This document shows, in pieces, positions 884 to 42,262 of a stretch of DNA of 42,274 nt. Position 1 is the stretch's first letter; every line of letters begins with the position of its first letter. Position numbers and translations under genes: made by a program. The notes under the pieces are model-generated. The model made no database searches. It saw only the letters and a list, made by a program, of their open reading frames with translations, and had not been told where the DNA came from. The DNA is from Verrucomicrobiota bacterium (lineage in GTDB: Bacteria > Verrucomicrobiota > Verrucomicrobiia > JAWXBN01), in assembly GCA_034440155.1 (NCBI GenBank), contig JAWXBN010000008.1:1-42274 (forward strand). Reading direction: 5' to 3'.

Positions 884-2161
884 ATGCTCAATAAATTCCA
901 AAAACTCCTCTCGATCATCGGTCCGGGACTGCTCATGGCGGGCGCGGCTATCGGTGTATCACATCTCGTTCAAGCCACCCGGGCGGGGGCGGATTTTGGA
1001 TATCAACTCATCCTCTTGGTTCTTCTTTCAAATTTTATTAAATATCCCTTTTTCGAGATCGGCCATCGTTTCGCCGTGACCGGGCGCAATTTGCTCGAGG
1101 GCTATCATCAGATGGGGAGGGGGTGGCTTTATCTTTTTCTTTTCCTGAATATTTTTACCGCCGTCATCAGTCTGGCCGGTGTGACCTTTGTGACCGGAGG
1201 ACTCGCGTCGAATCTCCTCCCATACGGATTCCTCAAAAGCTGGGACAATACGCTGTGGTGTGCACTCCTGCTTTTGATCTGTCTGGGACTCATTATTGTG
1301 GGAAGTTATCGGGTTCTTGAAAAATCGATCAAATGGATGATGTTCCTGCTCCTGATCTGTACGGTCGCAGCCCTCGTGGGGGCGATGATCCATGGGCCAA
1401 ATGCCGCTCCGGGCTTTGTGGGGCCTTCGCCCTGGACACTGGCGGCATTGCCCTTTCTCATCGCGCTGATGGGGTGGATGCCCGCGCCCATCGAGATGTC
1501 TGTGTGGCAATCCATCTGGGTCACCCAACAAAGCAAAAGCTCCGGGGAAAAGTCCACCCGCAGGAATACCTCCATCGACTTTCATTTTGGTTATGCCCTG
1601 ACCACGGGGCTGGCGGTCGTCTTCCTACTCATGGGCACGTATGTGATGTTTGGCACCGGCCAAGATTTCTCCAGTAACTCTGCTGGATTTGCGGCGCAGC
1701 TGGTCAAGATGTATACACAGACCCTCGGCGGCTGGTCTGGCCCGATTGTGTCTATCGCCGCCTTTGTCGCGATGTTTTCCACGACATTAACCGTGCTAGA
1801 CGCTTACCCGCACTCGCTCTCGACGGGGGCACAAATTGCATTCCCCTCGCTCAAGCTCTCTGGCCGCCATATGCACGTTTTACTGATGATCCTCTGTTCG
1901 ATCATTGCTCTGATTATTATTAATCGTTACCTCAATAGTATGAAGGCTCTCATCGACTTTGCCACGACCATCGCATTCCTCTCCGCCCCGGTATTTGCCT
2001 TTATGAATTATAAACTCATCTTTTCCGAGATCACTCCGCCAGAGCTCCGTCCAGGAATGACATTCAAGGCTCTCTGTTGGTTAGGAATTGCTTTCCTTTG
2101 CACCTTCTCTGTGCTCTTTCTATTATGGCGCTTTTACCCGGGCGTACTCTCTGGATTCTAA
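884..2161 (+). CDS. Nramp-family-like membrane transporter lacking the DPGN metal motif
   Basis: This is a 425-residue polytopic membrane protein with about ten or eleven hydrophobic segments. The first segment reads GPGLLMAGAAIGVSH, which aligns with the Nramp TM1 start GPG. The Nramp metal-binding Asp-Pro-Gly-Asn that normally follows is missing; the position reads Ile-Gly-Val-Ser-His. In the sixth segment the usual Met-Pro-His is replaced by WMPAPIE. The fold is therefore probably Nramp/APC-like (LeuT), but the substrate is uncertain and may not be Mn or Fe. I chose the ATG at 884 because GPGLL then falls 12 residues from the start, as in the family. A GTG at 824 or ATG at 854 in the same frame would add 20 or 10 hydrophilic residues. 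No strong ribosome binding site decides this. The gene carries one GCAATTTGC motif (1086-1094), read as Arg-Asn-Leu-Leu. Confidence 0.8.
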   Translation: MLNKFQKLLSIIGPGLLMAGAAIGVSHLVQATRAGADFGYQLILLVLLSNFIKYPFFEIGHRFAVTGRNLLEGYHQMGRGWLYLFLFLNIFTAVISLAGVTFVTGGLASNLLPYGFLKSWDNTLWCALLLLICLGLIIVGSYRVLEKSIKWMMFLLLICTVAALVGAMIHGPNAAPGFVGPSPWTLAALPFLIALMGWMPAPIEMSVWQSIWVTQQSKSSGEKSTRRNTSIDFHFGYALTTGLAVVFLLMGTYVMFGTGQDFSSNSAGFAAQLVKMYTQTLGGWSGPIVSIAAFVAMFSTTLTVLDAYPHSLSTGAQIAFPSLKLSGRHMHVLLMILCSIIALIIINRYLNSMKALIDFATTIAFLSAPVFAFMNYKLIFSEITPPELRPGMTFKALCWLGIAFLCTFSVLFLLWRFYPGVLSGF

Positions 2162-2834
2162 TAAGACAAACCAGCATCAATCATCCTAAAAAGGAAAATG
2201 GGCATGGGGATTCGGAGCTGAAGGGGGCTCTCAGTGTGGGCGGGTTATTTTTCTGGGATTAGGGTGTCCTGAGTTAACCGCTGAGGAGCAGGACAGCTTG
2301 GGCGATCGAGTCTCTTTTTTCGTGCAAAATACTCACCTTTACCGTTCTTTGGCCCCCGCTTTGGACTTGTCGCCCGACTCCTTGCATGAGCATCGGGCGG
2401 GGGCAGGATCGGCATGGCCTCGGTGGATTCTTTCCCCGTGGCCTCGTGGATCCGGCACTAGACACATTCGCTTTCAGAATAAATCTCACATTTCCCGTCG
2501 AGTGTGCCACCACAAGGGCCGTTGCGCAGACTCTTTGGGGGCAACTACTCATCGGGCAGATAAGACCGGTTTTACGCAGCACACACTGCCCGTAGGTTTG
2601 ACAATCAAAAAGTATTCCCTTCACAAACACCTCTGTGTGGAAAATAAGTTTTTCCGCAAGATTGGCCCGTTTGGTCTTTTGTCTTGCGGGGAGGCACTCT
2701 TGTTTTGACCAAGCAGAAAAATCAATAAACCCCTTATTTAATAGCCATTATTTCATTTAAACCCTGATGAATGATTAATCGGTCATTGTCGAGGTTGCCT
2801 TTATTCTCAAAAACAGGTTAATGTAGAAAAACCT
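2162..2834. other. 673-bp intergenic region without a convincing intact gene
   Basis: Several open frames cross this stretch on both strands, but none has a ribosome binding site, a recognisable domain or normal composition. The minus strand of 2274-2420 resembles a decayed LuxR-type helix-turn-helix end (see separate entry). The last 100 bases before 2835 are AT-rich and presumably carry the promoter of the PEP-CTERM gene; I see no perfect -35/-10 pair. Confidence 0.4.
2274..2420 (-). pseudogene. Possible remnant of a LuxR/NarL-type response regulator C-terminus
   Basis: On the minus strand the frame ending at 2274 reads RTVKVSILHEKRDSIAQAVL plus LLSG and a stop. This resembles the end of LuxR-type HTH domains, which commonly read RTVKVHVSxILxKLGVxDRTQAVLLA. 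Just upstream, another frame gives GDKSKAGAKER, similar to the usual SDKEIA segment, so at least one frameshift and small deletions would be needed. There is no intact receiver domain upstream. The match is short and by eye only, so it is a weak call. Confidence 0.25.
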
Positions 2835-4367: not shown

Positions 4368-4998
4368 GGATATAAGGCGCGGCTATTTTAGCCCATGTCT
4401 CTGCTTTTGGATAGGAGGACGCGCCATCGGCCCAGCAGGTCTGGAGCATGTCCGTATTAATGATACCGGGATTTAGCGGGATGGCAGCCATGCCTTCTGG
4501 CAATTCCTGTGCGAGGGCCTTAGTCATTCCTTCAATCGCATATTTGCTAGCACAATATGGGGCGACCTGTGGTGAGGTGGAGCGGCCCCAGCCCGAACTC
4601 AGATTAATGATCATCCCGCTTTTACGCGCAGTCATCGCAGGGGCAAAGGCTTTGATAGAGTGGAATACACCTCTGAGATTCACATCCATAATGCGGGCGA
4701 AGTCCACCGGGGCGATTTCCCATAAATTTCTGGGTTCATTGATAATGCCAGCGTTATTTATGAGAATGTCCGGTGGGCCGGATGCCGCCAAGATCGCCGA
4801 TGCCCAGTTCTCTACGGCTTCAAAGTCCGTCACGTCCAGCGCAGCAAATTGCGCGTTCGTAGGATAAGCGGTTTTTAATTTTTCAATCCGCTGTAAATTG
4901 CGGCCACACCCCATTGTCCGGTGCCCGAGCTTCTGGAACTCATGGATCAATGCCTCCCCTAACCCCCGTGTGCATCCGGTAATGACGATTGTTTTCAT
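4318..4998 (-). CDS. Short-chain dehydrogenase/reductase
   Basis: This is a classical SDR of 226 residues from the ATG at 4996-4998. The cofactor motif TGCTRGLG is at residues 7-14, NNAG at 81-84, and the catalytic set is Ser 134/135, Tyr 148 and Lys 152 (PYCASK). The cofactor is NAD(P)H; the substrate cannot be read from the sequence. The start is uncertain. A strong GGAGGAG lies at 5041-5047, about 8 bases before an in-frame TTG at 5034, which would add 12 residues. It also precedes an ATG at 5025-5027 in another frame that would give an 11-codon peptide whose TGA overlaps the SDR ATG (ATGA), suggesting translational coupling. The 3' end overlaps the convergent PEP-CTERM gene by 50 bases. 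One GCAAATTGC motif lies at 4844-4852, encoding Gln-Phe-Ala. Confidence 0.85.
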   Translation of the reverse strand: MKTIVITGCTRGLGEALIHEFQKLGHRTMGCGRNLQRIEKLKTAYPTNAQFAALDVTDFEAVENWASAILAASGPPDILINNAGIINEPRNLWEIAPVDFARIMDVNLRGVFHSIKAFAPAMTARKSGMIINLSSGWGRSTSPQVAPYCASKYAIEGMTKALAQELPEGMAAIPLNPGIINTDMLQTCWADGASSYPKAETWAKIAAPYILKLSPKDNGRSVSVPQ

Positions 4999-6032: not shown

Positions 6033-6191
6033 TTCTCCTCACTCTTATCGTGACGCTCCCTCCCTTCTCATTTGTGTGGGGTAGAGTGGGTGAAATAGAG
6101 GATCGATCCATCACCCGCCGATCCCGTTTAACTGATAAAATCGGAGCAATTTGCTCGACAAGGCGATTAGAAGCGTTAACAGCGCATATAT
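6033..6191 (+). promoter_or_regulatory. Leader with perfect odd palindrome GAGCAATTTGCTC
   Basis: This 159-base gap holds the 13-mer GAGCAATTTGCTC at 6144-6156, ending 35 bases before the next ATG. The sequence ATCCCGTT (6121-6128) precedes it, followed by TCGGAGCAA. The leader of dnaB (11851-11880) has the same two blocks and nearly the same spacing to its ATG. The arrangement could be an operator or simply two insertions of the same repeated motif. Confidence 0.4.
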
Positions 6192-9143
6192 ATGAATGAA
6201 TCGATTCTTTTCCACCATTCCCGCGTCCGTGAGCTAGAAGCCTTTAAAGCCGTAGAATCTGACGACACGATGCCGCTTCATATTTATCCGGCATTTATTG
6301 GTTCACGCATCCTTTCCTTCGGGCTGGATGCGACAGGCATGCAAGGGCTGGATGCGCGCCAGGCGGAGTATCCCCTTTTCCAATCACAATACGGAGATTC
6401 CAATAACTACGACGACCTCTACGTATTCCATACCGCGGTGAAGTCCAATCATGCGATCCACAGGAAAAATGACTATGTCCGGATGCCGCTAGGGTGGATT
6501 GATTATTCCCTGACGATGGACGGAAAAGAATATTCCCCCGAGCAAATTGCTCAGGAGGCTAAAAACTGGAGGCGCACCTTTGATCTGGCCAAGGTACTCT
6601 GCACGACAGAATACGACTTGAACGGGGTTTGGGTGTCCATTGAGAGTTATTGTACCCGGGAAACTATTATGCCTCGGTTTAACTTTGCACTCGTCGCCCT
6701 CGACGGAAAAAGTCATGAGGTCGAGATTGAAAGCCGGATTCATTTTACTCTGCGTGATGGGACTCCGATTTTCGAGGCCCTCCCAAAGGCCTGGAAACAG
6801 GGGAGCATAACAGGATTTTCCCTGACAGCGAGTAACTGTGAGAAATTTCAAGTCATGGAAGATTATCCGCTTACCTATGCGATTAAGGGAGGAAATCCCT
6901 TTCAATCAAACAATTTGCTCGGGGTAAAAAAGAAGTTAAGCGTCAAAAAAGAAGGAACCTCCACCGCTGCATTCGCCTTTTATTTTGGTTCCCACCAATC
7001 AAATAGTCACAATGATGAAAAAGCAGTAAATCTATTAACAAGCCTCGACCCTGTATCTAAACACGAAAATCTCATGAAGGATTATTGGATGACTCGTGCT
7101 GCCATTTCCACGGGGGATATTCGTCGTGACTGGCTTTATCATTATAATATCTATCTGGCTGATTTTGGCACCACGATGGAGTTCGGCGCACAATGTTCGG
7201 GTAATTTCGTCCCTTTCCATCTGGGAGACCGGGTATTCTGGGATTCCCACCATATTATCGACGGGATACTCCATGTCGGTGCGATAGACCATGCGCGGAA
7301 AAAGATTGATTGGCTAGAGAAAGCCCTTGTCGCCAATAAGGGGCGCCGCCCTTTTTACTGGATGGTCCACTATAATGGGAAGACTGAATCCAGTGACACG
7401 GGGTTCATGTCGATTTGTGCTCATGCGATGTCCGCCCAGCGTATTGCGCAATTTGCGCAGGATACAGCCTTAACCAAACGTTGTTTTGCTATAGTGGATG
7501 CCTGTGTCAAATTTGCCATCACCGAGAAATTTTTTGAGAAAACCCCGGAAGGGTGGATTCTTTCTACTGTATCAGCGACCGATGTGACTTTCTCTGATGA
7601 ATTTATGGAGAAGGCGAAAAATAATACATACACTTTCTGCTGGTTTTTAAGTGTCCTCGCCAAAGGTCACGAAATGGCCTCAACCGCCGGTAAACATAAC
7701 GCCGCTCATTGGAAACTGGCCAAAGAAATTACAGAAAATTATTATCTCGAACAAAACGAGAATGAATACCTCGATCAACGTGATGGAAAAACCGGGGAAA
7801 GACATGATTCATATCTCCCCGTCCTCTGTTATCCCACTGAGGGCCAGCACTGGGTGGAGAAACATAAATATCAATTTACGAGGATGTTACATGACCATTA
7901 TTGTAGTAATATGGCCTTTGTCGGATTCAAAATGCCATGGCCTATGCAGTGGGGTGCCGCCAGCGATTTCCGGGCAGGCATTCCTGACGCCGGCGAAGCC
8001 CGATTGAGGAATTCATTTGATTATTATGTCGGTCTCGGTCTTCCCTGCGAAGGTGAATCCGAAACCCTGACGGGCACTACCCAACCCTATCTTTCTGCCA
8101 GCGGGACCCTTTTAACCGCACAGAGTGAACAATTCTTTTACACAGACTTTTTCACCGGTGATATCAAACTTTTCACCTCCTTCGGGCGGAATCAAGAAAT
8201 CAAAAGTTCCTCATTTGAAAGGATTTATGGATCTGGAGGATTAGTGGCGAGCGGATGTTATTCCCCCACCGAAATCGAAGTTTCCATTCATTCAAAAAGT
8301 AATAAAGTGGTGAATGCAGAAATTTTGGTTCCTTATTTGATCCGACACCAAAATGTGGAGCTGATGGTGAATGGTAAAGCAGTCGCCCATGAAGCTCTCA
8401 AGGAGAAATTCTTCCCGTTCATCGACTCGGAAGATAAATGGCGGACATTCACCTTTGCAGGGAAAACTATTTCGATCCCGGCGCTGGCCTTGAAAAAGGG
8501 ATTAAATAAAATCACGCTGAAGGCGGCGCCTGCGAAAATTTTTAATCCGTCCAAAACGCTGGTTTATGACTTTAATTTCTTTGGGAAATCACTCGGCAAA
8601 TTGCTCGGGGGTGAAGATAAAGTCCATCTCGTTAATATTCGCCGGGATTTTGTGGAAATATTACCACAGGCTGACTTTGCGATATCGACGGATCCAACGT
8701 GGAATCCCCAGGGCCGTGAATATGAAGTTTTGGAGCAATTTGTCCAAGGCGGTGGGAAACTCGTCTTATTTTATGAGACAGCCCATAAATCAAATACGCT
8801 GAGCAAATTGCTGGGCCTTTCGCTGGATCATACTTGCGGACATCGATGGACACAGGAGCCTCTCAAGACAAAAATCCAGAAAACAAAGTATGCCGGGAAG
8901 GCCTTACCATCATCTGTGGAATTTTTGGATGAAGTCCGTTTGAAGGGTGAAGTAGCGGAGGATGTGGAGATTCTTTACACAACAACTGATGATGCGGTTT
9001 ATTGCACAAAACGCAAAGTCGGGGACGGGGAAGTCCTCTGGATTGCTTCAGGACAATCCTACCTCACCCACCGCGACTTTTTAAAATCAAAGGCCTGGCA
9101 GGAATGGTTCATCCAGATTTATCACTCACTTATTAAAGTGTAA
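6192..9143 (+). CDS. Large six-hairpin glycosidase-like protein with C-terminal GATase-like domain
   Basis: The product has 983 residues and no signal peptide, so it is probably cytoplasmic. The central part (about 300-660) looks like an (alpha/alpha)6 barrel. The segment GDRVFWDSHHIIDGILHVG near residue 345 resembles the substrate-binding FWD motif of GH65-type and related six-hairpin enzymes. YWMVHYNGKTESSDTG, FCWFLSVLAKGHEMAS and the stretch PWPMQWGAASDFRAGIPDAG follow. The N-terminal 280 residues are beta-rich, as in GH65 beta-sandwich domains. The last 160 residues (ADFAISTDPTWNPQ, YEVLEQFVQGGGKLVLFYET) resemble a glutamine-amidotransferase-like fold without its Cys nucleophile. I cannot assign the family or catalytic residues. 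Five GCAAWTTGC-type motifs lie in this gene, three read as Gln-Ile/Phe-Ala or Lys-Leu-Leu. A lipoprotein gene follows 97 bases downstream. Confidence 0.6.
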   Translation: MNESILFHHSRVRELEAFKAVESDDTMPLHIYPAFIGSRILSFGLDATGMQGLDARQAEYPLFQSQYGDSNNYDDLYVFHTAVKSNHAIHRKNDYVRMPLGWIDYSLTMDGKEYSPEQIAQEAKNWRRTFDLAKVLCTTEYDLNGVWVSIESYCTRETIMPRFNFALVALDGKSHEVEIESRIHFTLRDGTPIFEALPKAWKQGSITGFSLTASNCEKFQVMEDYPLTYAIKGGNPFQSNNLLGVKKKLSVKKEGTSTAAFAFYFGSHQSNSHNDEKAVNLLTSLDPVSKHENLMKDYWMTRAAISTGDIRRDWLYHYNIYLADFGTTMEFGAQCSGNFVPFHLGDRVFWDSHHIIDGILHVGAIDHARKKIDWLEKALVANKGRRPFYWMVHYNGKTESSDTGFMSICAHAMSAQRIAQFAQDTALTKRCFAIVDACVKFAITEKFFEKTPEGWILSTVSATDVTFSDEFMEKAKNNTYTFCWFLSVLAKGHEMASTAGKHNAAHWKLAKEITENYYLEQNENEYLDQRDGKTGERHDSYLPVLCYPTEGQHWVEKHKYQFTRMLHDHYCSNMAFVGFKMPWPMQWGAASDFRAGIPDAGEARLRNSFDYYVGLGLPCEGESETLTGTTQPYLSASGTLLTAQSEQFFYTDFFTGDIKLFTSFGRNQEIKSSSFERIYGSGGLVASGCYSPTEIEVSIHSKSNKVVNAEILVPYLIRHQNVELMVNGKAVAHEALKEKFFPFIDSEDKWRTFTFAGKTISIPALALKKGLNKITLKAAPAKIFNPSKTLVYDFNFFGKSLGKLLGGEDKVHLVNIRRDFVEILPQADFAISTDPTWNPQGREYEVLEQFVQGGGKLVLFYETAHKSNTLSKLLGLSLDHTCGHRWTQEPLKTKIQKTKYAGKALPSSVEFLDEVRLKGEVAEDVEILYTTTDDAVYCTKRKVGDGEVLWIASGQSYLTHRDFLKSKAWQEWFIQIYHSLIKV

Positions 9144-9240: not shown

Positions 9241-11727
9241 ATGTTAAAAATCCGTATTTTGTCCGTGACATTTATTTGCCTATTATTGGCCGTGAGTTGT
9301 TCGAAAAAACAAGAGGATCAGGTAGAAGTTCCAGTCGCCTCTAAAAAAACGCCTCTCTTTTCCCAAGATCAAATCAAAGTAACCATTCCTGCTGGTTACC
9401 GTCTTGTGACTGTAGTCGTCGATGATGAGAGTGGGGTACGTGCGCGCAATTTGCTCTCGATGCAGCCTGTCGAGAAATTTGGTGGCACACCCGACTCTGG
9501 ACAGCCCCAGACATTAACGGTTTCGTGGGATGGAAAAGATGATGATGGAAAACCGGTCCCGGCAGGAATGTATCGTGTGCGTGGCCTCACCCTCGAGGGA
9601 TTAGATGCACTTTACGAATATAGCTTTTACAATCCTGGCACTCCTGCCTGGCACATGTATCCGAATAGTGCTTGGGGTTCAAACCACGGGGATGGAGTCG
9701 GGATCGCCGCTATCTCGGATTCTGCTTCGACGAATTTAGCGGCGGTCGTGTCATTTTCCGCTTCGGAAGGGACTGATTATGCGATTGCCATCGGCAAAGA
9801 CGGAAAAAAGAAATGGGGACTCTATCAGGCGTGGGGAGCTTCCTGGGCTGTGGCGGTGGACAATGATGTCCTCTATCTGGCGGCACAGAATGGCTTGCGC
9901 AGGATGTCTGCGGCTGATGGGAAAGTCATCGGTTGGAAACGCCCCGCGGGTACCATTCCCGAAATCAAGGCGCCGGGCATCATTTATTCCGTCGCGGTCG
10001 GCCCTAACGAAGGAGCTTTTTCGATTACCCCCGATGCCAAACAAAAAACGGCGGACATTTGGTTTTTTGACAAGGAAATGGGCAAAACTAATGCCGTGGC
10101 TGTTTTAGATAAACCCATGCATTTGGCCTATTCAAACGATGGCACCCTTTATGGAACGGATAAAGAATTCACCAAACTCGTCACGATCGATAAATCAGGA
10201 ACCCAGACGCCCGTGACGTTGGCTGGTCTCGAAAAGCCGGGTCCTCTGGCTTTCGATAAGGAAGGGAATCTCTATATTCTCGATAGTGGTGCAGATTATC
10301 AAATCAAGGTTTATTCCCCCGCTAAAGATCTCATCCGCACCATCGGTGTCAAAGGCGGCGCTAAAAAGGGAGTCCAGTATGACGAGAATGGTTTCTTTAA
10401 GCTCTTGGCCCTTTCCGTGGATAACCAAGGCAATATCTGGACCAGCGAAGGCGCGCACCCCCGCCGTCAAGCCCTCTGGGACAAGGACGGTAAACTCCAG
10501 AAACAATTTGTCGGAAGCACTTACTACGGTGGATGGAATACCGCGCTCCATAACCAAGATCCCAAACGGGCATTTGTGTGGAATGCCGAACTGGAAGTCG
10601 ATCCTTCCCAGACGCAGTCCTATAAGATAAAGAAATTCGTCACGAGCAATAAGAAAGAAGGCAGCAAGCTCAATACGGAATTAGGAGGGGTCGGCGTGTG
10701 GTTCCACCGAAATGAATTTTTCCGTAGTGATGCCTCCGGCCAACCACATGACTATATGCTTTATACACAATGCGCTTACCCGATTATTTTCCTGGCAAAA
10801 AACGGGGATTACCGTCCGGTGGCGGCGATGTGGACGAAGGTGGGGGCTTGGCCTCAAGTGACCCCTTGGAGCCGGCCAGCGGATCCGGAAGGAACGGTGT
10901 ATGTCTGGAGTGACTTGAATGAGGACGAAGACATCCAGGAAAATGAGGTCGTGGTTATTGAAGGCTCGAAAGGGCGGGGTATTCCCGGGTGGATGTTCCC
11001 GATGAGTGCCTCCTTTGATTTTTATAATGGGGGGTTTGCGATTAAACCCACACGGTTCCTGCCCAGCGGAGCACCCGTGTATGAAAAGACCACGATCACC
11101 AAACAGGAGTTCAAAGGCCACGATAAAGTCATCGACACCTTGACAAACGATCCGAATAACCGCCCAAAACCGGATCAATTTTATATCCGTATCGGAGACC
11201 ATCTTTATTCAGGGTACGGCGACTGGCCCACCTACTTTACAGGCAAACATGTCTGGACTGACATGAAAGGTAATGTCGTCGCCACACGCAAAATCTTCGG
11301 CGGAGCAGTCCACGGCTCCATGGCCATAGGTCCTGTGCCCCAAGGTGAAATGACGGGTGAACTTTTTATTGCCGGTGCAGCCAAGGTCAATGACGAGGTG
11401 GGTGCCGTCATGGCGATCCACGGGAATTATGGACAGGTTTATTTCCTCACAGAAGACGGGATATTCATTTCCAGTATGTTTAAAGATACCCGTGATAATC
11501 CTGAAGGTTGGGGCGCGGAAGCCGAACGGGGTAAGTCATGGAAAAATATCAGTATGTACCAGGAATCTTTCTGTGGGTGGTTCGGCAAACAGGATGACAA
11601 TAAATTCCGTTATACATTTGGCCACACCTCAGGTAACGTCGTGGAAATCACCGGGCTGGATAAAATCAAACGTTTTAATACAGGCTGGGTCGAGATCAAA
11701 GCCCCTGCCGACGCACCGGCAAAATAA
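9241..11727 (+). CDS. Beta-propeller lipoprotein with FlgD-like Ig domain
   Basis: The product has 828 residues. The N-terminus is a lipoprotein signal peptide with lipobox LAVSC and the lipidated Cys at residue 20; Ser follows at +2. Residues about 45-125 look like a FlgD-type Ig fold: VTIPAGYRLVTVVVDDESG, then TVSWDGKDDDGKPVPAGMYRVRG. The middle carries NHL/SMP-type beta-propeller strands, for example GPLAFDKEGNLYILDSG, LALSVDNQGNIWTSEGAH and HLAYSNDGTLYGTD. The C-terminal third has no recognised domain. It is probably an envelope-anchored binding or sensing protein. It sits 97 bases after the glycosidase-like gene in the same direction, so a shared carbohydrate role is plausible but inferred. 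A terminator-like hairpin follows at 11735. Confidence 0.7.
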   Translation: MLKIRILSVTFICLLLAVSCSKKQEDQVEVPVASKKTPLFSQDQIKVTIPAGYRLVTVVVDDESGVRARNLLSMQPVEKFGGTPDSGQPQTLTVSWDGKDDDGKPVPAGMYRVRGLTLEGLDALYEYSFYNPGTPAWHMYPNSAWGSNHGDGVGIAAISDSASTNLAAVVSFSASEGTDYAIAIGKDGKKKWGLYQAWGASWAVAVDNDVLYLAAQNGLRRMSAADGKVIGWKRPAGTIPEIKAPGIIYSVAVGPNEGAFSITPDAKQKTADIWFFDKEMGKTNAVAVLDKPMHLAYSNDGTLYGTDKEFTKLVTIDKSGTQTPVTLAGLEKPGPLAFDKEGNLYILDSGADYQIKVYSPAKDLIRTIGVKGGAKKGVQYDENGFFKLLALSVDNQGNIWTSEGAHPRRQALWDKDGKLQKQFVGSTYYGGWNTALHNQDPKRAFVWNAELEVDPSQTQSYKIKKFVTSNKKEGSKLNTELGGVGVWFHRNEFFRSDASGQPHDYMLYTQCAYPIIFLAKNGDYRPVAAMWTKVGAWPQVTPWSRPADPEGTVYVWSDLNEDEDIQENEVVVIEGSKGRGIPGWMFPMSASFDFYNGGFAIKPTRFLPSGAPVYEKTTITKQEFKGHDKVIDTLTNDPNNRPKPDQFYIRIGDHLYSGYGDWPTYFTGKHVWTDMKGNVVATRKIFGGAVHGSMAIGPVPQGEMTGELFIAGAAKVNDEVGAVMAIHGNYGQVYFLTEDGIFISSMFKDTRDNPEGWGAEAERGKSWKNISMYQESFCGWFGKQDDNKFRYTFGHTSGNVVEITGLDKIKRFNTGWVEIKAPADAPAK

Positions 11728-11850: not shown

Positions 11851-11880
11851 ATCCCGTTAAAAAGTCGGAGCAACTTGCTC
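11851..11880 (+). promoter_or_regulatory. Palindrome GAGCAACTTGCTC in the dnaB leader
   Basis: The blocks ATCCCGTT (11851-11858) and TCGGAGCAACTTGCTC (11865-11880) repeat the arrangement upstream of the 983-aa gene, with central C instead of T. The palindrome ends 34 bases before the dnaB ATG, against 35 bases in the other leader. Function unknown. Confidence 0.35.
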
Positions 11881-13548: not shown

Positions 13549-13761
13549 GACTTTGTCGGGCAAGTGAGCCCTGCTTGTGGAGGGGCAGAGTTTCACACGT
13601 ACATACGGCATTTGGCAACCGGGCCGGTCGCCCTACACAAAATGAGTTTGGACAAACCGTCTCCATGATCTTTCGTGCCTTTCATGTTCTTCGTGGTGCA
13701 ATTTGCTCATGGTGGATGAAAAAAAGAAAAGTCAGTTCGCAGGTTGCCTGCGGCAATTTGC
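13549..13761 (+). repeat. Dispersed intergenic repeat, copy A
   Basis: This copy shares several blocks with 24409-24632. The best block is 46 bases, 13606-13651 against 24471-24516, with a single mismatch. It contains the hairpin GGCAACC-GGGCC-GGTCGCC. A second shared block is 13689-13706 against 24552-24569 (CTTCGTGGTGCAAT then TTGC or CTGC). Shared shorter words include CTGACTTTG at the left and AAGTCAGTTCG at the right. The part TTTCGTGCC-TTTCATGTT-CTTCGTGGT has a rough 9-base period. Both copies end with a GCAATTTGC motif followed by TC. Confidence 0.75.
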
Positions 13762-24392: not shown

Positions 24393-24758
24393 CGAGGCCT
24401 TTTAGCCTGACTTTGATAGGGCAAGCGGCCCCTCCTACTTGCTATGGATCAGAGTCTCACGCACCATGAACGGCATTTGGCAACCGGGCCGGTCACCCTA
24501 CACAAAATGAGTTTGGCCATTCCGCCTGTCATCCCTTGTACCTTTCGTGAGCTTCGTGGTGCAATCTGCGCGTGGTTGATGGAAAAAAGACCAAGTCAGT
24601 TCGTGGGTTACCTTCAGCATTCAGCAATTTGCTCAAGGGCTACGGTACGCAATGGGATCGCGGGGGGGGTGTGTTCGACAGGGGCAGGAGTTTAGTAGTA
24701 GGGACAAAGTGAATTTTGATTGGCCTGTGGGGGCATAGGCCCTACAAATGAGGGGATC
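24393..24758. other. Intergenic region with dispersed repeat copy B
   Basis: There is no credible gene between ribBA and the aminotransferase. Most of the stretch is repeat copy B (24409-24632). The remainder, to 24758, includes a GGGGGG tract and presumably the aminotransferase promoter. A plus-strand frame at 24444-24695 only reads through the repeat. Confidence 0.6.
24409..24632 (+). repeat. Dispersed intergenic repeat, copy B
   Basis: This is the partner of 13549-13761. The 46-base block 24471-24516 differs from copy A at one base. The block 24552-24569 matches copy A at 13689-13706 except that GCAATTTGC is here GCAATCTGC. A perfect GCAATTTGC followed by TC closes this copy at 24624-24632. 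Both copies lie directly downstream of plus-strand genes (dnaB and ribBA) and point the same way. Confidence 0.75.
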
Positions 24759-25934: not shown

Positions 25935-26969
25935 TTACTGCTGGTGGACAGGGGCATCACCGAGGTGGACACTCGGGACGAGGTAATTTTGAACGTAATC
26001 GTGGATACACTCTTTGAACGGGGTGACTGCTTGTGAGTAACCGGTGTCGCGGAGTTTGGTCGTATCGGCTTTGGTATAATACTGGTATTTGGAACGCAGG
26101 ACATCGGGCATTTCCACCATTTCAATGTCGGGCGTCTTCCCGAGGGCCTCAAAGATCGCCGTGGCCAGCTCGACCCAAGTATGGGCTTCACCGGAACCGA
26201 TATTAAAGAGGCCTCCCGCGCGGGTATTTTCCGCCAAGTCAATGGTCATATTGACGGCATCTTTGACATAATGGAAATCCCTCATTTGTCCACCATCCGG
26301 ATAATCGGGATGGTAGCTTTTAAAAAGTTTGATCTTCCCGGTCGCAGCAATTTGCTCATAACCTTTGCAGACCATACTGCGCATGTCGCCCTTGTGCCAT
26401 TCATTAGGCCCGTACACATTAAAATATTTTAGTCCGACAATCTGGTCGATAATGCCTTCGCGGCGTGCAAAGAGGTCAAAGAGGTGTTTGGAATACCCGT
26501 ACATATTCAGCGGGCGGAGCTGTTCCAGCCCCACATCCGAGTCACTCATGCCGTGTGAACCGTCCCCGTAGGTCGCCGCTGAAGACGCATAAACAAAGCG
26601 GACTTCCTTCGACAAAGCCCATTGGGCGAGTTCCTTGGTGAACTCATAATTATTATCAATCAGGTACGAGGCATCTTTTTCCGTGGTGGCCGAGCACGCA
26701 CCGAGGTGGTACACGGTGGAGAATTCCGCCAAATGGGAATCTTCCGAACGCACCCAGCTACGCAATTTGTCCGCCTCGATATAATCGACAAATTTCAGTG
26801 GGGTAAGATTCTTCCACTTTTCATCGGTCTTTAGGTAATCGGCAATGATGATATTATTCGTGCCTCGCCGGTTCAGCTCCCAGACAAGGGCGCTACCAAT
26901 AAACCCGGCGCCGCCCGTGACAAGGATGCGGCCTTTTTTCGAACGAGTGGATGTGGGACGTGATGACAT
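25935..26969 (-). CDS. hldD: ADP-L-glycero-D-manno-heptose 6-epimerase
   Basis: The product has 344 residues. The Rossmann motif VTGGAGFIGSALVWELN is near residue 17. Further HldD signatures are HLGACSATTEKDASYL, YASSAATYGDG, the catalytic YGYSKHLFD, GLKYFNVYGPNEWHKGDMRSM and FNIGSGEAHTW. It converts ADP-D-glycero-D-manno-heptose to the L-glycero form used in the LPS inner core, which points to a Gram-negative outer membrane. No other heptose gene is adjacent. One GCAATTTGC motif (26347-26355) encodes Gln-Ile-Ala. Confidence 0.93.
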   Translation of the reverse strand: MSSRPTSTRSKKGRILVTGGAGFIGSALVWELNRRGTNNIIIADYLKTDEKWKNLTPLKFVDYIEADKLRSWVRSEDSHLAEFSTVYHLGACSATTEKDASYLIDNNYEFTKELAQWALSKEVRFVYASSAATYGDGSHGMSDSDVGLEQLRPLNMYGYSKHLFDLFARREGIIDQIVGLKYFNVYGPNEWHKGDMRSMVCKGYEQIAATGKIKLFKSYHPDYPDGGQMRDFHYVKDAVNMTIDLAENTRAGGLFNIGSGEAHTWVELATAIFEALGKTPDIEMVEMPDVLRSKYQYYTKADTTKLRDTGYSQAVTPFKECIHDYVQNYLVPSVHLGDAPVHQQ

Positions 26970-28422: not shown

Positions 28423-29697
28423 TTAATTTCTCCAGACGATTTTACCGGCAACAATCGTGTAGATGGCCCGGCCAGTAAGCTCCCACCCATGGTAAGGGGT
28501 ATTACGGCCTTTTGACGCAAATTGCGTTTTGTCCACGGTCCATTGGAGGTCGGGATCGATAATGGTCACATCCCCATCAGCCCCAGGGCTCAAATGTCCT
28601 TTGTCCAAATGGATCAGCTTGGCGGGCTCGACGGTGAGCATCTCGATCATGCGGTTGATCGAGATGACTTTGGCTTCGACTAATGCCTTCATAAAAAGGG
28701 ATAATTCGGTTTCGAGGCCGACGATGCCAAAGGGCGCTTGGTCGAACTCCACTTCCTTCTCAAAGCCACAGTGCGGGGCATGGTCACTGGCCAAGATCGT
28801 GATGGTCCCGTCGGCGATCCCCGCGAGCAAATCATCAATATCCTGCTGTGAACGCAGGGGCGGATTCATTTTATAATTCGTATCGAAAGACCCGATTGCC
28901 TCGTCGGTGAGCGTGATATGGTGGGGGCAGACTTCCCCGCTGATTTTTACCCCGCGTTTGCGGGCCTCACGCATGAGACGCACCGAGCCCGATGCACTGA
29001 GGTGTTGGCAGTGGATGTAATGGTCTATTTTTTCTGAGAGCAGGATATTGCGCGCGACGATCATTTCTTCCCCGAGTGCCGGCCAGCCGGGTAGACCCCA
29101 GCGCACACTCCACTGGCCTTCATTCATCACCCCGTTACCCACGAGATGGTAGTCCTGACAATGATCCATGATGGGAAGGTCGAACATCTTGGCGTATTCG
29201 CTCGCCCGCCGCATCAATTCATTATTCTGTACACAATGCCCGTCATCAGTGATCGCCACGACCCCTGCTTTTTTGAGCGAACCAATCGGGGCCATTTCCT
29301 CCCCCGCAATTTGCTTCGTAATCGCGCCGGTCGTGTAAACATTTACGATGGCTTTCTCCCGGGCTTGTTCTTGGATCCAACGGATGACACTCGGGGAATC
29401 CGCCACCGGTGAGGTATTTGGCATACAGACGACAGAAGTAAATCCCCCCGCCGCCGCTGACTTTGAACCGGTCTCGATTGTTTCTTTAGACGATTGGCCG
29501 GGTTCACGAAAATGCACATGGATATCGATGAGTCCGGGACAAACGATTTTACCCAAGGCATCGATTGATTCAGTTTGGCCATCGGGCTTTTGTCCGGGCA
29601 TGGCGATTTTCCCGTCGATAATCAAGAGATCCCGGATTTCATCGGTTTGATTCGCCGGGTCGATGATTCTTCCATTTTTAATGAGTAAAGATGACAT
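28423..29697 (-). CDS. pyrC: Dihydroorotase
   Basis: The product has 424 residues, the long class I type. Metal-binding DIHVHFREPGQ is near residue 59, followed by TGSKSAAAGGFTSVVCMPNTSP, the second metal-binding stretch near MDHCQDYHL, HCQHLSASGS, and the catalytic ASDHAPH. It closes carbamoyl aspartate to dihydroorotate in pyrimidine synthesis. Its ATG follows the pyrB stop with one base between (TAGTATG), so the two are translationally coupled. Two GCAAWTTGC motifs lie in the gene at 28517 and 29306. Confidence 0.95.
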   Translation of the reverse strand: MSSLLIKNGRIIDPANQTDEIRDLLIIDGKIAMPGQKPDGQTESIDALGKIVCPGLIDIHVHFREPGQSSKETIETGSKSAAAGGFTSVVCMPNTSPVADSPSVIRWIQEQAREKAIVNVYTTGAITKQIAGEEMAPIGSLKKAGVVAITDDGHCVQNNELMRRASEYAKMFDLPIMDHCQDYHLVGNGVMNEGQWSVRWGLPGWPALGEEMIVARNILLSEKIDHYIHCQHLSASGSVRLMREARKRGVKISGEVCPHHITLTDEAIGSFDTNYKMNPPLRSQQDIDDLLAGIADGTITILASDHAPHCGFEKEVEFDQAPFGIVGLETELSLFMKALVEAKVISINRMIEMLTVEPAKLIHLDKGHLSPGADGDVTIIDPDLQWTVDKTQFASKGRNTPYHGWELTGRAIYTIVAGKIVWRN

Positions 29698-29698
29698 A

Positions 29699-33306: not shown

Positions 33307-33332
33307 AAATTTAATTTAAATTCCAAATGACA

Positions 33333-34772: not shown

Positions 34773-34803
34773 ATTCATGAAATATTAATCGTATTAACGA
34801 GGT

Positions 34804-36130: not shown

Positions 36131-37531
36131 TTATTCACGTTCCAGTTTATAGACCAAGGACTGGATAGATTGGCGGATTTCACTGTCTTGATCCATACGA
36201 TCTTTAATCGTTTTGCATGCATGAATAACGGTACCATGATCACGGCCGCCAAAGAGGTCACCGATTTCCGTCAGGGACACCTGGGTGAGTTCCCGAGATA
36301 AATACATAGCGATCTGCCGTGGAAAAGCGATGTGAGCGGGGCGTTTTTTGCTGGTCAGGTCGGAAATACGGATATCAAAGCGTTCAGCGACTTTCTTTTG
36401 GATAATATCCACACTAACACTCTTTTTCTGTTCTTTTTCGAGTAAATCTTTCAGCAGGATTTCGACGGCTTCGGTCGTCAGCGGCCCGTTATTGAGTGAA
36501 CTATGCACACCAAGGCGGATCAAGGCTCCTTCGAGGCGGCGGATATTTGACTGGATACGTTCTGCCAGAAAACGGAAGATTTCATCGGGGAGCTTGATAT
36601 GGTGCAGATCAGCTTTCCGGCGGATAATGGCTTCGCGGGTCTCGGTGTCCGGTATATTCATCTCGGCGGACATACCCCATTCGAAGCGTGAAATCAGGCG
36701 TTTTTCGAGGTTGGCCACTTCGCTGGCGGGCCGGTCGCAGGTCAGGACAATTTGTTTATGCCCATCTTTTAAAGAATTAAATGTGTGGAAGAATTCTTCT
36801 TGGGAACGGTCTTTTCCGGCAAAAAACTGGATGTCATCGATCAAAAGCACATCGGCGGAACGGTATTTCTTCCGGAATTTCACCATGATATTATTCTGCA
36901 TGGCCTCGATGAATTCATTCACAAACTTTTCAGAGGTGATGTAAACAACCTTCGCGTGCGGTCTTTTTTCCAGGATAGCATTCCCAATCGCGTGCATGAG
37001 ATGGGTTTTACCCAGACCGACACCTCCATGAATAAAGAGTGGATTATACGTCGTGGCAGGTGCTTTCGCCACTCCGATGGCAGCCGCACGCGCAAAACGG
37101 TTCCCCTCCCCTTCGACGAAAGTAGTAAAACTGTACTGTTCATTCAAGGGATTTTCGCGGGGAATGGAAGAGTCGCGCAATTTGCTCGAATCAGCCCTTT
37201 TCCTTGTGGGTAAAGGCAAAACAGAAGAGGAAGCGCTTTGATTGGCCACTGCGTCGGTGGAGGAACCGGCCACGGCCTGAGTGCGCAAGGAGATTTTGAG
37301 TTTCACCGAAATGGGTTCCTCGGCTGCGGCGAGCACGGATTGCTTAAGGATCTGGAGGTAATTATCTTCGATCCAGAAAAGATGCATGCTGTCAGGCACG
37401 CCAAGGGTAAGGCAATCATTTTCTAAAGATAAAGGCTTGATCGAAGCAAACCACAAGTTAAAGAGGTTTTCATTGAGTTGCCCACGGATGTGAACTTTTG
37501 TAGAATTCCAAATTTCTTCTAATGACACCAT
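36131..37531 (-). CDS. dnaA: Chromosomal replication initiator DnaA
   Basis: The product has 466 residues. Domain I covers about residues 1-85 (LEEIWNSTKVHIRGQLNENLFNLWF). A variable Ser/Arg-rich linker follows to about residue 125. The AAA+ domain begins YTFTTFVEGEGNRFA-type, with Walker A GGVGLGKTHLMHAIGN near 168 and Walker B VLLIDDIQFFAGKDRSQEEF. Domain IV ends with the DnaA-box-binding signature GGRDHGTVIHACKTI. It opens oriC and loads DnaB. DnaA boxes lie both upstream (37542, 37783) and downstream (36099). One GCAATTTGC (37187-37195) falls in the linker as Ser-Lys-Leu-Arg. Confidence 0.97.
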   Translation of the reverse strand: MVSLEEIWNSTKVHIRGQLNENLFNLWFASIKPLSLENDCLTLGVPDSMHLFWIEDNYLQILKQSVLAAAEEPISVKLKISLRTQAVAGSSTDAVANQSASSSVLPLPTRKRADSSKLRDSSIPRENPLNEQYSFTTFVEGEGNRFARAAAIGVAKAPATTYNPLFIHGGVGLGKTHLMHAIGNAILEKRPHAKVVYITSEKFVNEFIEAMQNNIMVKFRKKYRSADVLLIDDIQFFAGKDRSQEEFFHTFNSLKDGHKQIVLTCDRPASEVANLEKRLISRFEWGMSAEMNIPDTETREAIIRRKADLHHIKLPDEIFRFLAERIQSNIRRLEGALIRLGVHSSLNNGPLTTEAVEILLKDLLEKEQKKSVSVDIIQKKVAERFDIRISDLTSKKRPAHIAFPRQIAMYLSRELTQVSLTEIGDLFGGRDHGTVIHACKTIKDRMDQDSEIRQSIQSLVYKLERE

Positions 37532-37850: not shown

Positions 37851-39992
37851 TTACTTTCGAGTCCTGATCGGTTCAAAGCGGCGAACCTTAGCTGGTTCAT
37901 TTTCGTTCATTTTTGAGATCTGCTCACGGGCCCATGAACGGAAGTGTAGCTGGGCTTGCAGGGACTTCTGACCCTTAGCTGGTTGGAGCCTGATATAGGT
38001 GCCGTCAGCTTTAAGTTCACGGGCTTTGATATTGTCGCTGAGGTAAGCCGGGATGATCTCATTTTTGATCTGGCCGGCGAGTTGTTCATTTTCGACGGGG
38101 AAAACCAGCTCGACGCGGCGGTATAAATTCCGAGGCATGAGGTCGGCACTGCCGAGGTATACCAAGGGAGCCCCCCCGTTTTCAAAGTAGTAAATGCGGC
38201 TGTGCTCTAGGAAACGCCCGACAATACTGATGACGCGGATATTTTCGCTGACACCGGCGATCCCGGGTCGCAGACAGCACACCCCGCGGATAATCAGGTC
38301 GATTTTTACCCCTGCGCAACTTGCTTCATAGAGGAGCTTGATAAAATGTTCGCACACGATGGAGTTTACCTTGATCGTGATTTTTGACGGTAACCCCTTC
38401 TTGGCATTAGCGATCTCGTTCTCGATCAAGATGCTGAGTTTATTTGCCAAGTCATATGGGGCCACGAGCAATTTGCGGAACTCCGGATAATCGGAGAGCC
38501 CGGTGAGGGAATTAAATAACTGGGCGACCTCGGAGCAAATTGTTTCATTGGCCGTCAGCAGGCTCATATCCGTGTAAAGCCGGGCGGTTTTGGGATTATA
38601 ATTACCCGTGCCCAGATGCACGTAACGCCGGATCATGTCCCCGTCACGGCGGACGATGAGCATACATTTGCAGTGGACCTTTAACCCCACGACCCCGTAA
38701 ACGACATGAACCCCAGCTTCTTCAAGCAAGCGGGCCCAGTGGATATTATTTTCCTCATCAAAACGTGCTTTCAGCTCGACGAGCGCAGTGACTTGTTTCC
38801 CATTATTGGCGGCGGCAATCAAGGCTTTCACGATCGCCGAGTCCCCGCTTGTGCGGTAAAGGGTCATCTTAATGGCGAGTACAGCAGGATCAGCTGCGGC
38901 TTGGACGATGAAATCAACCACCGTATCGAAATTTTCGTAAGGATGATGCAGCAGGATATCTTCCTTTTTTAAGACGCTGAATGCTTCAGCCCCCGGCGGC
39001 AGGTCGAGATCGTAGCTCGGGACAAAGGGCCTGTCTTTGAGTAAGGGAAATTGGTCATTGGTACATAGCTGCATCAGGTGCTGGACATTGATCGGCCCGT
39101 CGATGCGGTAAAGATCCATTTGTTCCAAATGCAGATTCTCCAAGAGGAATTGCTCCATCTCATGCGGGCAATCAATCTGGACTTCCAGACGCACTGCATT
39201 ACCGCGGTTACGCTTGCGCAAATTGCTCTCGATGGTGCGCAGGAGGTTTTCCTCTTCTTCCGCGTCGATGTAGAGGTCACTATTACGCGTCACTCGGAAG
39301 CTGTAGGCACCTTCCACCCTCAGGCCGGGGAAAAGCTCTTGTACATGGATCTTGATCAATTTGCTCAGGGCGATGAATTCCGTGCGCCCTTCCTTTTCAT
39401 TTTTCGGTGGTAACTGGATCAACCGCGGCAAAATGCGCGGGAGCTGCACCACCGCGTGGAATTCCCCGCCTCCAGCACGTTCACTCTTACACAGTTTCAC
39501 GATGATATAATGAGCTTTATTCAGCACCTGCGGGAAAGGATGGCTCGCATCAATGGCCAATGGGGTGAGAACAGGGAAAACTTGTTCGACAAAATACTTC
39601 TGCGCCCAGGCTTTATCAGTTCCTTTAAGCTGGTCGGCCTCGGGGAAGTTGATTCCCTCCTTAGTCAATGCCGGGTGGAGGTCTTCATTCCATAACTGGG
39701 ATTGTTCGGCGACGAGTTCACGAGTGCGTTTCTGGATCGCACTGAAAATCTGGGAGGAGCTCATACCGTCCGGCCCGATATCGCTGTATTCATTTTCGAT
39801 CTGCTGCTTGATCCCTGACACCCGGATCTCGAAGAATTCGTCGAGGTTCGAGCTGAAAATGCAGAGGAATTTGACGCGTTCCAACAAAGGTTGCGCCTTG
39901 TCCTGGGCCTCCTCCAGCACTCGGCCGTTAAATTCAAGCCAGCTTAGTTCACGATTAATGTAAAGTTCGGGTAGGGAAAAGTCTTCGCTCAT
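37851..39992 (-). CDS. ppk: Polyphosphate kinase
   Basis: The product has 713 residues, the standard PPK1 length. The N domain has YINRELSWLEFNGRVLEEA near residue 11. Later blocks are HPYENFDTVVDFIVQAAADP, KMTLYRTSGDSAIVKALI, ARFDEENNIHWARLLEEAGV, the segment GLKVHCKCMLIVRR with the candidate phosphorylated His, and YVHLGTGNYNPKTARLYTD. RVELVFPVENE near the end completes the family pattern. It reversibly makes polyphosphate from ATP. Its location beside dnaA is unusual for characterised bacteria, and linkage to replication is only positional. Two exact GCAAWTTGC motifs lie in the gene (38468, 39218). Confidence 0.95.
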   Translation of the reverse strand: MSEDFSLPELYINRELSWLEFNGRVLEEAQDKAQPLLERVKFLCIFSSNLDEFFEIRVSGIKQQIENEYSDIGPDGMSSSQIFSAIQKRTRELVAEQSQLWNEDLHPALTKEGINFPEADQLKGTDKAWAQKYFVEQVFPVLTPLAIDASHPFPQVLNKAHYIIVKLCKSERAGGGEFHAVVQLPRILPRLIQLPPKNEKEGRTEFIALSKLIKIHVQELFPGLRVEGAYSFRVTRNSDLYIDAEEEENLLRTIESNLRKRNRGNAVRLEVQIDCPHEMEQFLLENLHLEQMDLYRIDGPINVQHLMQLCTNDQFPLLKDRPFVPSYDLDLPPGAEAFSVLKKEDILLHHPYENFDTVVDFIVQAAADPAVLAIKMTLYRTSGDSAIVKALIAAANNGKQVTALVELKARFDEENNIHWARLLEEAGVHVVYGVVGLKVHCKCMLIVRRDGDMIRRYVHLGTGNYNPKTARLYTDMSLLTANETICSEVAQLFNSLTGLSDYPEFRKLLVAPYDLANKLSILIENEIANAKKGLPSKITIKVNSIVCEHFIKLLYEASCAGVKIDLIIRGVCCLRPGIAGVSENIRVISIVGRFLEHSRIYYFENGGAPLVYLGSADLMPRNLYRRVELVFPVENEQLAGQIKNEIIPAYLSDNIKARELKADGTYIRLQPAKGQKSLQAQLHFRSWAREQISKMNENEPAKVRRFEPIRTRK

Positions 39993-40213: not shown

Positions 40214-42262
40214 TTATTCAGTGTTCTGAGGTATGGACTCAGGGCTTATTTCCACCCCTCCCCCACTCCCTCTTTTGAGGTAAACACTCACAAGAGAGAT
40301 GTCGCTAGGAGTAATCCCCGAGATGCGGGAGGCTTGGCCTAGGGTCAGCGGGCTGATCTTGGTGAGTTTTTGAACCGCCTCTTTCCGGAGGCCTTTGATC
40401 CCGTCATAAGTGAAAGATGCTGGGATTTGTTTAGATTCCATCTTCTTAAACCGGGCGATTTCTTCATTCTGGCGGGTGACATAACCTTCATATTTGATAT
40501 CAATCTCGATCTGTTCCTTCACCGAATCAGGTAAAGACTGGAATTCCTCAGGCAAATCTTTGAACTTAATCTCCGGGCGCCGGAGGACTTGCGCCCAGCT
40601 ATTCTGTCCCGTATAGGTCTTGAGCAATTTGCGTTTGGTCAGTTCGATCACGTCTTGTTTTTCTTTGACCCGTGTAAAGTCTGTCTCCGAGATCATTCCT
40701 GCCGCCCGCGCCTTTTCGTACAGGCGTAAGTCCGCATTGTCCTGCCGCAGATGCAGTCGATATTCCGCCCGGGAGGTGAACATCCGATAAGGTTCATTTG
40801 TCCCCTTGGTCACGAGGTCATCGACCAAGACACCGATATACGCCTCGGAGCGGTCGAGGATCAGGGGCTCTTTGCCCAGGATTTTTAATGCGGCATTTGC
40901 CCCGGCGATAAGGCCCTGGCCCGCGGCCTCCTCATACCCGGACGTGCCATTTATCTGTCCGGCAAAATAAAGGTGCTCTACCTTTTTGGTTTCAAATGTC
41001 GGATAAAGCTGGGTCGGCGGGCAATAATCGTACTCCACCGCATACCCCGGTCGCACAATCTCGGCATTCTCTAGCCCCGAAATACTCCGGATAAAAGCAA
41101 TTTGCACCTCCAAAGGGAGGCTGGTGGAACATCCATTCACATACAGCTCATGTGTGTGGCGGCCCTCGGGTTCGATAAAAACCTGATGCCTTTCCTTGTC
41201 GGCGAATCGGACAATCTTATCCTCCAACGAGGGGCAATAACGAGGCCCGACCCCTTCGATTATCCCGCAATACATTGGGGATTTGTCTAAATTTGCCTTA
41301 ATCACATCAGCCGTCTTGGAGTTCGTAAATGTAATCCAACAAGGCATTTGCTCCCGTGGATTCCAGGGAAGTCCTTGGTGATATTGTTCCACGTGGAACA
41401 TTTTTTTCTCCACGTGGCAATTTGTTGCGTGTTCATCGTCCGACTCCACATTCTGGCGTAACCAACGATATTGGCCGAGGGTGCCTGAATTAAGCCCGCC
41501 TAACCAATCCCGTTCAATCGGGTTGGATTCAAAAGGTGTCGGCGGGTTTTTCGGATCTGTCTTGTAGCTGAACCATGGAATCGGTTCATCCCCGTGCTGC
41601 ACCTCTAAACGGCTGAAATCCACACTCCGAGCATCCAAACGCGGCGGGGTCCCGGTTTTGAAACGTTCCACGAGGAACCCGAGTTCCACAAGTGACCCTG
41701 ACAAATTTGACGCGGCATCACCCAGACGCCCACCGACTTGATTCTGGAGACCCACGTGCATGAGCCCACGCATAAAGGTTCCAGTCGTAATCACGACAGA
41801 TTTGCCCAGAAACCGAACACCGAAATTTGTCTCGACTCCGGTTACTTTATCGTTATCGACAAGGATTTTTGAGGGTTGTGCCTGTTTAATTTGGAGGTTT
41901 GGTGTATTTTCGACCAGGCCCTTCATAAAAAATTGGTAAGCCTTTTTATCACATTGAGCCCGGGGAGCTTGGACTGATGGACCTTTACGGGTATTCAGCA
42001 TGCGGAATTGGATCCCGGTGGCATCCGTGCAATAAGCCATAGCCCCGCCGAGTGCATCGATTTCACGAACGATGTGTCCTTTGGCGAGTCCGCCGATAGC
42101 CGGGTTACAAGACATCTGACCGATCGTGTCGAGATTCATCGTGAGGAGCAGGGTCGATGCCCCGATCCGGGCACTGGCTAACGCCGCTTCGATCCCGGCA
42201 TGTCCAGCCCCGACCACGATCACGTCATATTCTGTAGGATAAGTAAACACAAGTCCCCCCAC
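40214..42262 (-). CDS. mnmG: tRNA uridine-5-carboxymethylaminomethyl modification enzyme MnmG
   Basis: The product has 682 residues from a GTG at 42260-42262, longer than the usual 620-630. The FAD-binding motif [19 protein letters not shown] is near residue 16, followed by [79 protein letters not shown], and [18 protein letters not shown]. With MnmE it modifies U34 of certain tRNAs. The extra length is an insert at about residues 235-300, between PIPWFSY and PCWITFT. It contains [12 protein letters not shown], encoded by a parS palindrome and a CCACGTGG half. The start is uncertain: a GTG at 42250 has a better-spaced GGGGGGA, and the frame is open to the window edge. Motifs lie at 40624 and 41097. 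Confidence 0.93.
41385..41417. promoter_or_regulatory. parS-type palindrome inside mnmG, with adjacent half-similar site
   Basis: TGTTCCACGTGGAACA at 41385-41400 is identical to the intergenic site at 40110. CCACGTGG follows at 41410-41417, ten bases away, the same two-element arrangement as at 40093-40125 but in mirror order. On the coding strand it is read Met-Phe-His-Val-Glu-Gln within the lineage-specific insert of MnmG. Confidence 0.8.

Follow-up and report, generated by a model that had tools for sequence, protein, structure and literature searches.

GCAAWTTGC, a palindromic word iterated throughout a verrucomicrobial genome, and biased DNA uptake as its possible driver

Introduction

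Well-known words that are iterated over whole genomes are few. They comprise the uptake signal sequences (USS), the DNA uptake sequences (DUS) and the highly iterated palindrome HIP1 of cyanobacteria, which was reportedly described by Robinson in 1995 and whose driver is still open. The stretch of DNA analysed here, referred to as the window, spans 42,274 nucleotides of contig JAWXBN010000008.1 of a Verrucomicrobiota bacterium (assembly GCA_034440155.1) and raises the question of whether a further word of this kind exists. An original prediction made from its letters had pointed out an odd-length palindrome, GCAAWTTGC, that recurs in unrelated genes, and had considered an uptake-type or a regulatory signal. 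Which force accumulates such a word, and where does it belong among the known ones? Among the papers listed by a literature search, the matches to the word were coincidental strings, for example primers, and GCAAWTTGC has apparently not been described before. We are highly confident that a sequence-specific drive acts genome-wide on this symmetric word, and this core is common to the two explanations that we rank highest, biased DNA uptake and a reader inside the cell.

Over-representation of GCAAWTTGC

The window contains exactly 27 copies of GCAAWTTGC, distributed from position 1086 to position 41105, just as had been counted by eye. In one hundred dinucleotide-preserving shuffles of the window, the word occurred 0.59 times on average and never more than 3 times; a third-order Markov model predicts about 0.4 copies (0.19 per strand reading, two readings). 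The whole assembly (2,763,229 bp in 132 contigs, 97% complete, with gaps) carries 1,522 copies, equivalent to 551 per Mb or one per 1.8 kb, while the reversed control word occurs 7 times. All ratios of observed to expected counts (O/E), the sequence logo and the location statistics given below were derived from 2.09 Mb, i.e. 76% of the genome, containing 1,136 perfect sites. Against the third-order Markov model, which the original prediction had proposed as the yardstick, O/E amounts to 54 for this part of the genome. Because 1,522 copies genome-wide stand against 7 of the control, the enrichment is neither close to the Markov expectation nor limited to the window.

A mild excess of the word is found in many bacterial genomes and reaches up to about 38 copies per Mb within the class. 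Among some 645 other genomes (383 from the class and 388 sampled from the phylum, the two sets partly overlapping), none exceeded 165 copies, a count reached in a genome of 4.3 Mb. The relatives that were returned all belong to other families of the same class and the source genome is thus an isolated lineage. PEP-CTERM/PATR proteins encoded in the window and an Opitutales genome among the distant polyphosphate kinase relatives point to a probable verrucomicrobial origin.

Structure and origin of the palindrome

Taken in full, the signal extends over about 19 bp as a symmetric palindrome with the consensus CYNGMGCAAWTTGCKCNRG. The proposed extension of the core towards GAG...CTC is real, as G at position -6 or C at position +6 accompanies 64% of the GCAAWTTGC half-sites. 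Position -5 is occupied by A or C (T or G at +5) and C/G is preferred at positions ±8 and ±9. The left and right halves are independent at ±6, and correlation between half-sites at these positions was considered and discarded. As the word is nearly palindromic, its orientation can be read from the A/T centre base only and the statement that it lies on both strands has little meaning; the accompanying statement on reading frames and unrelated genes holds, as unrelated genes carry copies in frames 1 and 2 and further copies lie between genes.

Enrichment falls off steeply from the perfect core, with near-matches graded behind it. Variants with C/G (S) at the centre reach an O/E of 14 and those with G>A or C>T at an outer base an O/E of 9, while transversions at the outer bases and most inner changes are enriched 1-3x only. 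Damage to one half is more readily tolerated next to an intact GCAAA than next to an intact GCAAT. The 1,136 perfect copies compare with about 1,207 singly mismatched ones in sum, around half of which are expected by chance.

Depending on the threshold (17-18 of 24), about 89-93% of the sites have unrelated flanks and about 7-11% reside in multi-copy repeats. At the two sites in the polyphosphate kinase gene, the one protein family that was aligned, the alignment of homologues is free of gaps. The mostly unrelated contexts thus indicate that the sites arose by point mutation.

Imprint on the proteome

Genes were called with a home-made coding model, and 932 of the 1,136 sites (82%) fall inside them. 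Frame 0, in which the word needs cysteine, is rare among these sites, and frames 1 and 2 are used equally. The word appears to reshape protein sequence genome-wide. QIA (510 observed vs 175 expected, 2.9x) and QFA (262 vs 81, 3.2x) head the list of 6,897 tripeptides ranked by over-representation, with ANC in third place and RKL and KLL behind it, all of which are encoded by GCAAWTTGC. Where QFA follows a codon ending in G, the word encodes 187 of 189 occurrences. AIQ and AFQ, which are QIA and QFA reversed, stay near 1 in the source genome, and proteins from 80 control loci of other bacteria show QIA at 1.2x and QFA at 1.3x.

Polyphosphate kinase offers a view of single residues. The scan with this protein returned distant homologues only (best about 50% identical, with an Opitutales genome among them). 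At 38468..38476 (GCAATTTGC, frame 1, RKLL) the column is variable in homologues, and at 39218..39226 (GCAAATTGC, frame 1, SNLR) the site encodes an asparagine that is present in 2 of 80 homologues in a column without gaps. The rare asparagine together with the excess of tripeptides therefore points at a pressure strong enough to have changed amino acids.

Location of sites

Along genes, the sites are spread about evenly. They are densest in convergent intergenic DNA, the part of the genome expected to be under the least constraint, at about twice the density of other intergenic DNA, and this also holds when repeat-associated sites are left out; divergent intergenic DNA, which contains promoters, is not enriched. 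Site density rises with gene GC content; the genes poorest in GC have 0.18 sites per kb and those richest in GC 0.94. A local halo is not seen around isolated sites, where GC4 is nearly constant with distance, and within genes no significant effect was found. The link between density and GC content is therefore regional, and a GC halo produced by recombination-linked biased gene conversion was rejected. Pairs of sites are in excess at distances of 50-600 bp (g 1.1-1.8), and the coefficient of variation of the gaps is 1.2, which amounts to mild clustering. Neither helical phasing nor a fixed neighbour distance was detected among the sites.

Possible drivers of the iteration

We consider biased DNA uptake, with the word serving as a self-recognition sequence, as the likeliest driver, even though we give it somewhat less than an even chance. 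Uptake is favoured because of the density of the word, its strong core, the point-mutational origin of sites, the effect on the proteome, the presence of competence genes, the low density in CRISPR islands and AT-rich genes and the build-up in the DNA expected to be least constrained. What we infer is a receptor, biased uptake and transformation as the drive. The transformation system, formed by the type IV pilus and ComEC, would possess a surface or periplasmic receptor with a preference for word-bearing DNA, and recombination of the imported DNA would push near-matches towards the consensus. Such a sequence-specific drive would maintain the word along the chromosome at intervals averaging about 1.8 kb. 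USS and DUS are asymmetric, whereas the site read by this receptor would be symmetric.

The word resembles the USS of Pasteurellaceae (AAGTGCGGT, ACAAGCGGT) and the DUS of Neisseriaceae in having a 9-bp core at about one copy per 1-2 kb, flanks that are conserved less strongly, sites that mostly arose independently by point mutation, numerous copies inside genes and accompanying competence genes. An excess of perfect copies is typical of USS and DUS, and USS arise by substitution (PMC1626085). Perfect and singly mismatched copies are also about equal in number here, which is somewhat weaker than in Haemophilus influenzae, where their ratio exceeds 1:1 (PMC1626085). The share of genic sites is higher than the 65% and 35% of uptake words reported in genes of H. 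influenzae and Neisseria gonorrhoeae, respectively (PMC1939737). GCAAWTTGC further differs by the lack of AT-rich downstream tracts and by its occurrence in another phylum.

The original prediction had suggested looking for competence genes, and these are present. The genome encodes a three-domain ComEC (DUF4131, Competence and beta-lactamase domains), DprA, RecA, several type IV pilus/type II secretion ATPases, one or more secretins and pilin-like proteins, as well as a ComF-like phosphoribosyltransferase. Two adjacent prepilin-like proteins of 204 residues each that share the same N-terminus are encoded at L013:12059-13378 and probably stem from a recent tandem duplication.

Several points weigh against uptake. 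Known uptake sequences are all asymmetric, and DNA uptake-enhancing sequences (DUES) are not palindromes (PMC1939737), whereas the signal described here is a near-perfect dyad-symmetric palindrome of 19 bp. The spacing of USS and DUS is somewhat more even than chance would give (PMC1626085), whereas GCAAWTTGC is mildly clustered at 50-600 bp; by its palindromy and clustering it differs from every uptake sequence known. Competence genes occur widely and are not specific evidence, and among the matches to HHH_3 no convincing ComEA was found, since one is a frame of 773 residues that reads Tex-like and the other a helix-hairpin-helix protein of 94 residues that is unlike typical ComEA. An uptake-type signal as initially suggested is therefore plausible in view of the genome-wide drive, the strong core, the mutational origin, the altered proteins and the competence genes, but it is not proven. 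Held with somewhat more reserve than uptake as such, it is possible that a third, independently evolved system for recognition of self-DNA has come into view, in which a palindromic uptake sequence and a symmetric transformation receptor would operate in a deep lineage far from Pasteurellaceae and Neisseriaceae, without recognisable DNA methylation and with hundreds of tripeptides rewritten by the drive.

Second in our ranking behind biased uptake stands a HIP-like signal with an intracellular reader, a symmetric DNA-binding dimer, possibly with a part in nucleoid organisation or in guiding repair or recombination; the sites could be kept by selection or could be made by a repair process favouring the word. 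We regard this as possible, while leaning against it. The dyad-symmetric consensus of about 19 bp with its independent half-sites is what would be expected of a dimer, and the greater damage tolerance of the GCAAA half-site as well as the mild clustering agree with it, as do deviations that are greatest at the first and last bases, as for HIP1 (PMC4390886). A candidate protein was, however, not identified, the altered proteins and the high site density between convergent genes are more suggestive of drive than of functional sites put in place, and neighbouring sites show neither helical phasing nor a GC gradient around them. Sites of the parS, matS, SlmA, Noc and Fis-like type have the same symmetric architecture and number tens to a few hundred without any over-representation of a word on the genome scale. 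Chi-type sites are likewise over-represented short words scattered over genes; they are, however, asymmetric and polar, whereas a palindrome cannot be polar and GCAAWTTGC has no local GC halo, and E. coli Chi is only several-fold over-represented (5.7; PMC1939737).

A cognate DNA methyltransferase acting together with methyl-directed mismatch repair, the model proposed for HIP1 (Elhai, 2015; PMC4390886), is an improbable driver of GCAAWTTGC. In its favour, MutS and MutL are encoded, and HIP1 (GCGATCGC) and the alternate HIPs are also palindromic and genome-wide, with about 500-2500 copies per Mb compared with about 550 here, and have variants concentrated at the outer bases (PMC4390886), as is the case here with 9x for outer G>A/C>T against mostly 1-3x for inner changes. 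The word differs from described HIPs in being an odd-length 9-mer with a W centre that is not GC-rich. More importantly, HIPs generally co-occur with cognate methyltransferases, and the genome, 97% complete, yielded no match over the cut-off to any of five Pfam families of DNA methyltransferases searched genome-wide, i.e. PF01555 (N6_N4_Mtase), PF02086 (MethyltransfD12), PF00145 (DNA_methylase), PF02384 (N6_Mtase) and PF07669 (Eco57I), rarer families lying outside the search. A lone sub-threshold match to PF07669 falls, by reading of the sequence, in a PrmC-like gene. Identical searches gave matches in 4 to 13 of 14 control genomes. A regular-expression search for methyltransferase motifs in 76% of the genome retrieved RNA methyltransferases and unrelated proteins only. 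The absence of matches to these families argues against the HIP1 model, and a methylase co-occurring with the motif, for which the original prediction had recommended a search, thus lacks support. The lack of matches to the five families is also unusual for a bacterium with a genome of 2.8 Mb and suggests that few or no restriction-modification systems are present.

It is very improbable that the word was spread by copying as a multi-copy dispersed repeat or mobile palindrome resembling repetitive extragenic palindromic elements (REP) or miniature inverted-repeat transposable elements (MITE). The 7-11% of sites with common longer flanks, such as GGAGCAAnTTGCACCACGAAGG..., and elements near contig ends would fit, but the large majority of sites have unrelated flanks in unrelated genes, use two frames and fall in gap-free alignment columns. 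As a general explanation, copying is largely refuted; repeats do account for a few copies between genes. One composite intergenic repeat, GGAGCAAnTTGCACCACGAAGGACACGAAGG, joins the palindrome to a CACGAAG heptamer repeat (e.g. at L008:1881 and L014:14346). A second dispersed repeat, TGTAGGGCGAsCGGCCCTGCTTGCC, is unrelated to GCAAWTTGC and occurs in about 65 copies genome-wide, almost purely between genes.

Just as little credence goes to an operator of a global transcription regulator or to transcription terminators, for which the palindromic nature of the word and the about 2-fold excess in convergent intergenic regions could be put forward. A regulatory role, the other option initially envisaged, is not supported because 82% of the sites are intragenic; their roughly flat distribution along genes and the lack of enrichment in divergent regions speak against it as well.

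Finally, plain mutational or codon-usage bias or a statistical artefact, to which the AT-rich centre of the word and its mild excess in many genomes might be taken to point, is practically untenable and already refuted by the genome-wide counts, given the O/E of 54, the 7 control copies, the lack of anything comparable in about 645 genomes of the phylum and a site density that climbs with gene GC despite the AT-rich word.

Relation to known iterated words

GCAAWTTGC is not fully accommodated by any described family. We file it under neither HIPs nor uptake sequences, because it comes without a recognised cognate methylase, in contrast to the former, and without asymmetry, in contrast to the latter. 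HIP-like symmetry in the absence of a recognisable methylase, combined with USS-like strength in the presence of competence genes, separates ideas that are confounded elsewhere. The word documents that a palindrome can be about 55-fold over-represented in the absence of the methyltransferases invoked for HIPs, as judged from the five families searched, and it provides a clean prediction, namely either biased uptake or a palindrome-binding protein.

Copies in the window and site-free regions

Positions of the sites in the window refer to the whole stretch and the strand is given as '.' throughout. Starting from the left, GCAATTTGC is found in an Nramp-like gene (1086..1094, frame 1, RNLL), followed by GCAAATTGC in ORF (open reading frame) 4318-4998(-) (4844..4852, frame 2, AQFA) and an intergenic GCAATTTGC (6146..6154). 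ORF 6192-9143 harbours GCAAATTGC at 6542..6550 (frame 2, EQIA), 8596..8604 (frame 1, GKLL) and 8803..8811 (frame 1, SKLL), GCAATTTGC at 7448..7456 (frame 2, AQFA) and the outer-base variant ACAATTTGC at 6910..6918, which belongs to the outer G>A class (O/E 9). ORF 9241-11727, with a weak FlgD_ig match, contains GCAATTTGC (9446..9454, frame 1, RNLL). The centre variant GCAACTTGC of the S class (O/E 14) occurs twice with full flanks, once between genes (11870..11878) and once in ORF 20478-21407(-) (21229..21237, frame 2, EQVA). Two intergenic copies of GCAATTTGC after dnaB (13698..13706 and 13753..13761) are 55 bp apart.

The series continues with GCAAATTGC in a gene for an AraC-family regulator (22224..22232, frame 2, TQIA), in convergent intergenic DNA (22401..22409), in the small ORF 22450-22809(-) (22722..22730, frame 1, GNLP) and upstream of ribBA (23144..23152, intergenic), and proceeds with GCAATTTGC between ribBA and an aminotransferase gene (24624..24632). 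The latter gene carries four sites, GCAAATTGC at 24971..24979 (frame 2, EQIA), 25009..25017 (frame 1, SKLP) and, at its 3' end, 25903..25911 (frame 1, GKLL), and GCAATTTGC at 25336..25344 (frame 1, RNLP). Further copies reside in genes for an NAD-dependent epimerase (GCAATTTGC, 26347..26355, frame 2, EQIA) and a dihydroorotase-like protein (GCAAATTGC, 28517..28525, frame 2, TQFA; GCAATTTGC, 29306..29314, frame 2, KQIA). Downstream, GCAATTTGC is present in ORF 36131-37531(-) (37177..37185, frame 1, SKLR) and, beyond the two sites in the polyphosphate kinase gene, twice in mnmG/gidA (40624..40632, frame 1, RKLL; 41097..41105, frame 2, VQIA).

Gaps in this series had been noted over a surface-protein gene and ankyrin genes, and they exist. 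A protein of 1240 residues that combines a PEP-CTERM motif with passenger-associated transport repeats is encoded at 14145-17867 without any GCAAWTTGC, and the gene for an ankyrin-repeat protein (31732-33306) lies inside the site-free stretch 29315-37176. The interpretation that such gaps mark young or foreign genes holds in part. AT-rich regions and the CRISPR loci of the Cmr type and of type I-C are site-poor, but site deserts also cover conserved genes that are mreB-like, infC/rplT-like and pheS-like, names that were read from the sequences and not obtained by family search. Spacer seeds from 5 of 19 CRISPR spacers, tried against viral contigs, gave no matches. The Cmr (type III-B-like) locus is located on an 18-kb contig that is free of GCAAWTTGC (L027, contig C27). 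By reading, cas genes are type I-C-like at L085:10168-19990 (contig C85), where they are accompanied by an array of 15 repeats (GTCGCGCCCCACACGGGGCGCGTGGATTGAA), and a second, short repeat array is situated at L089:4508.

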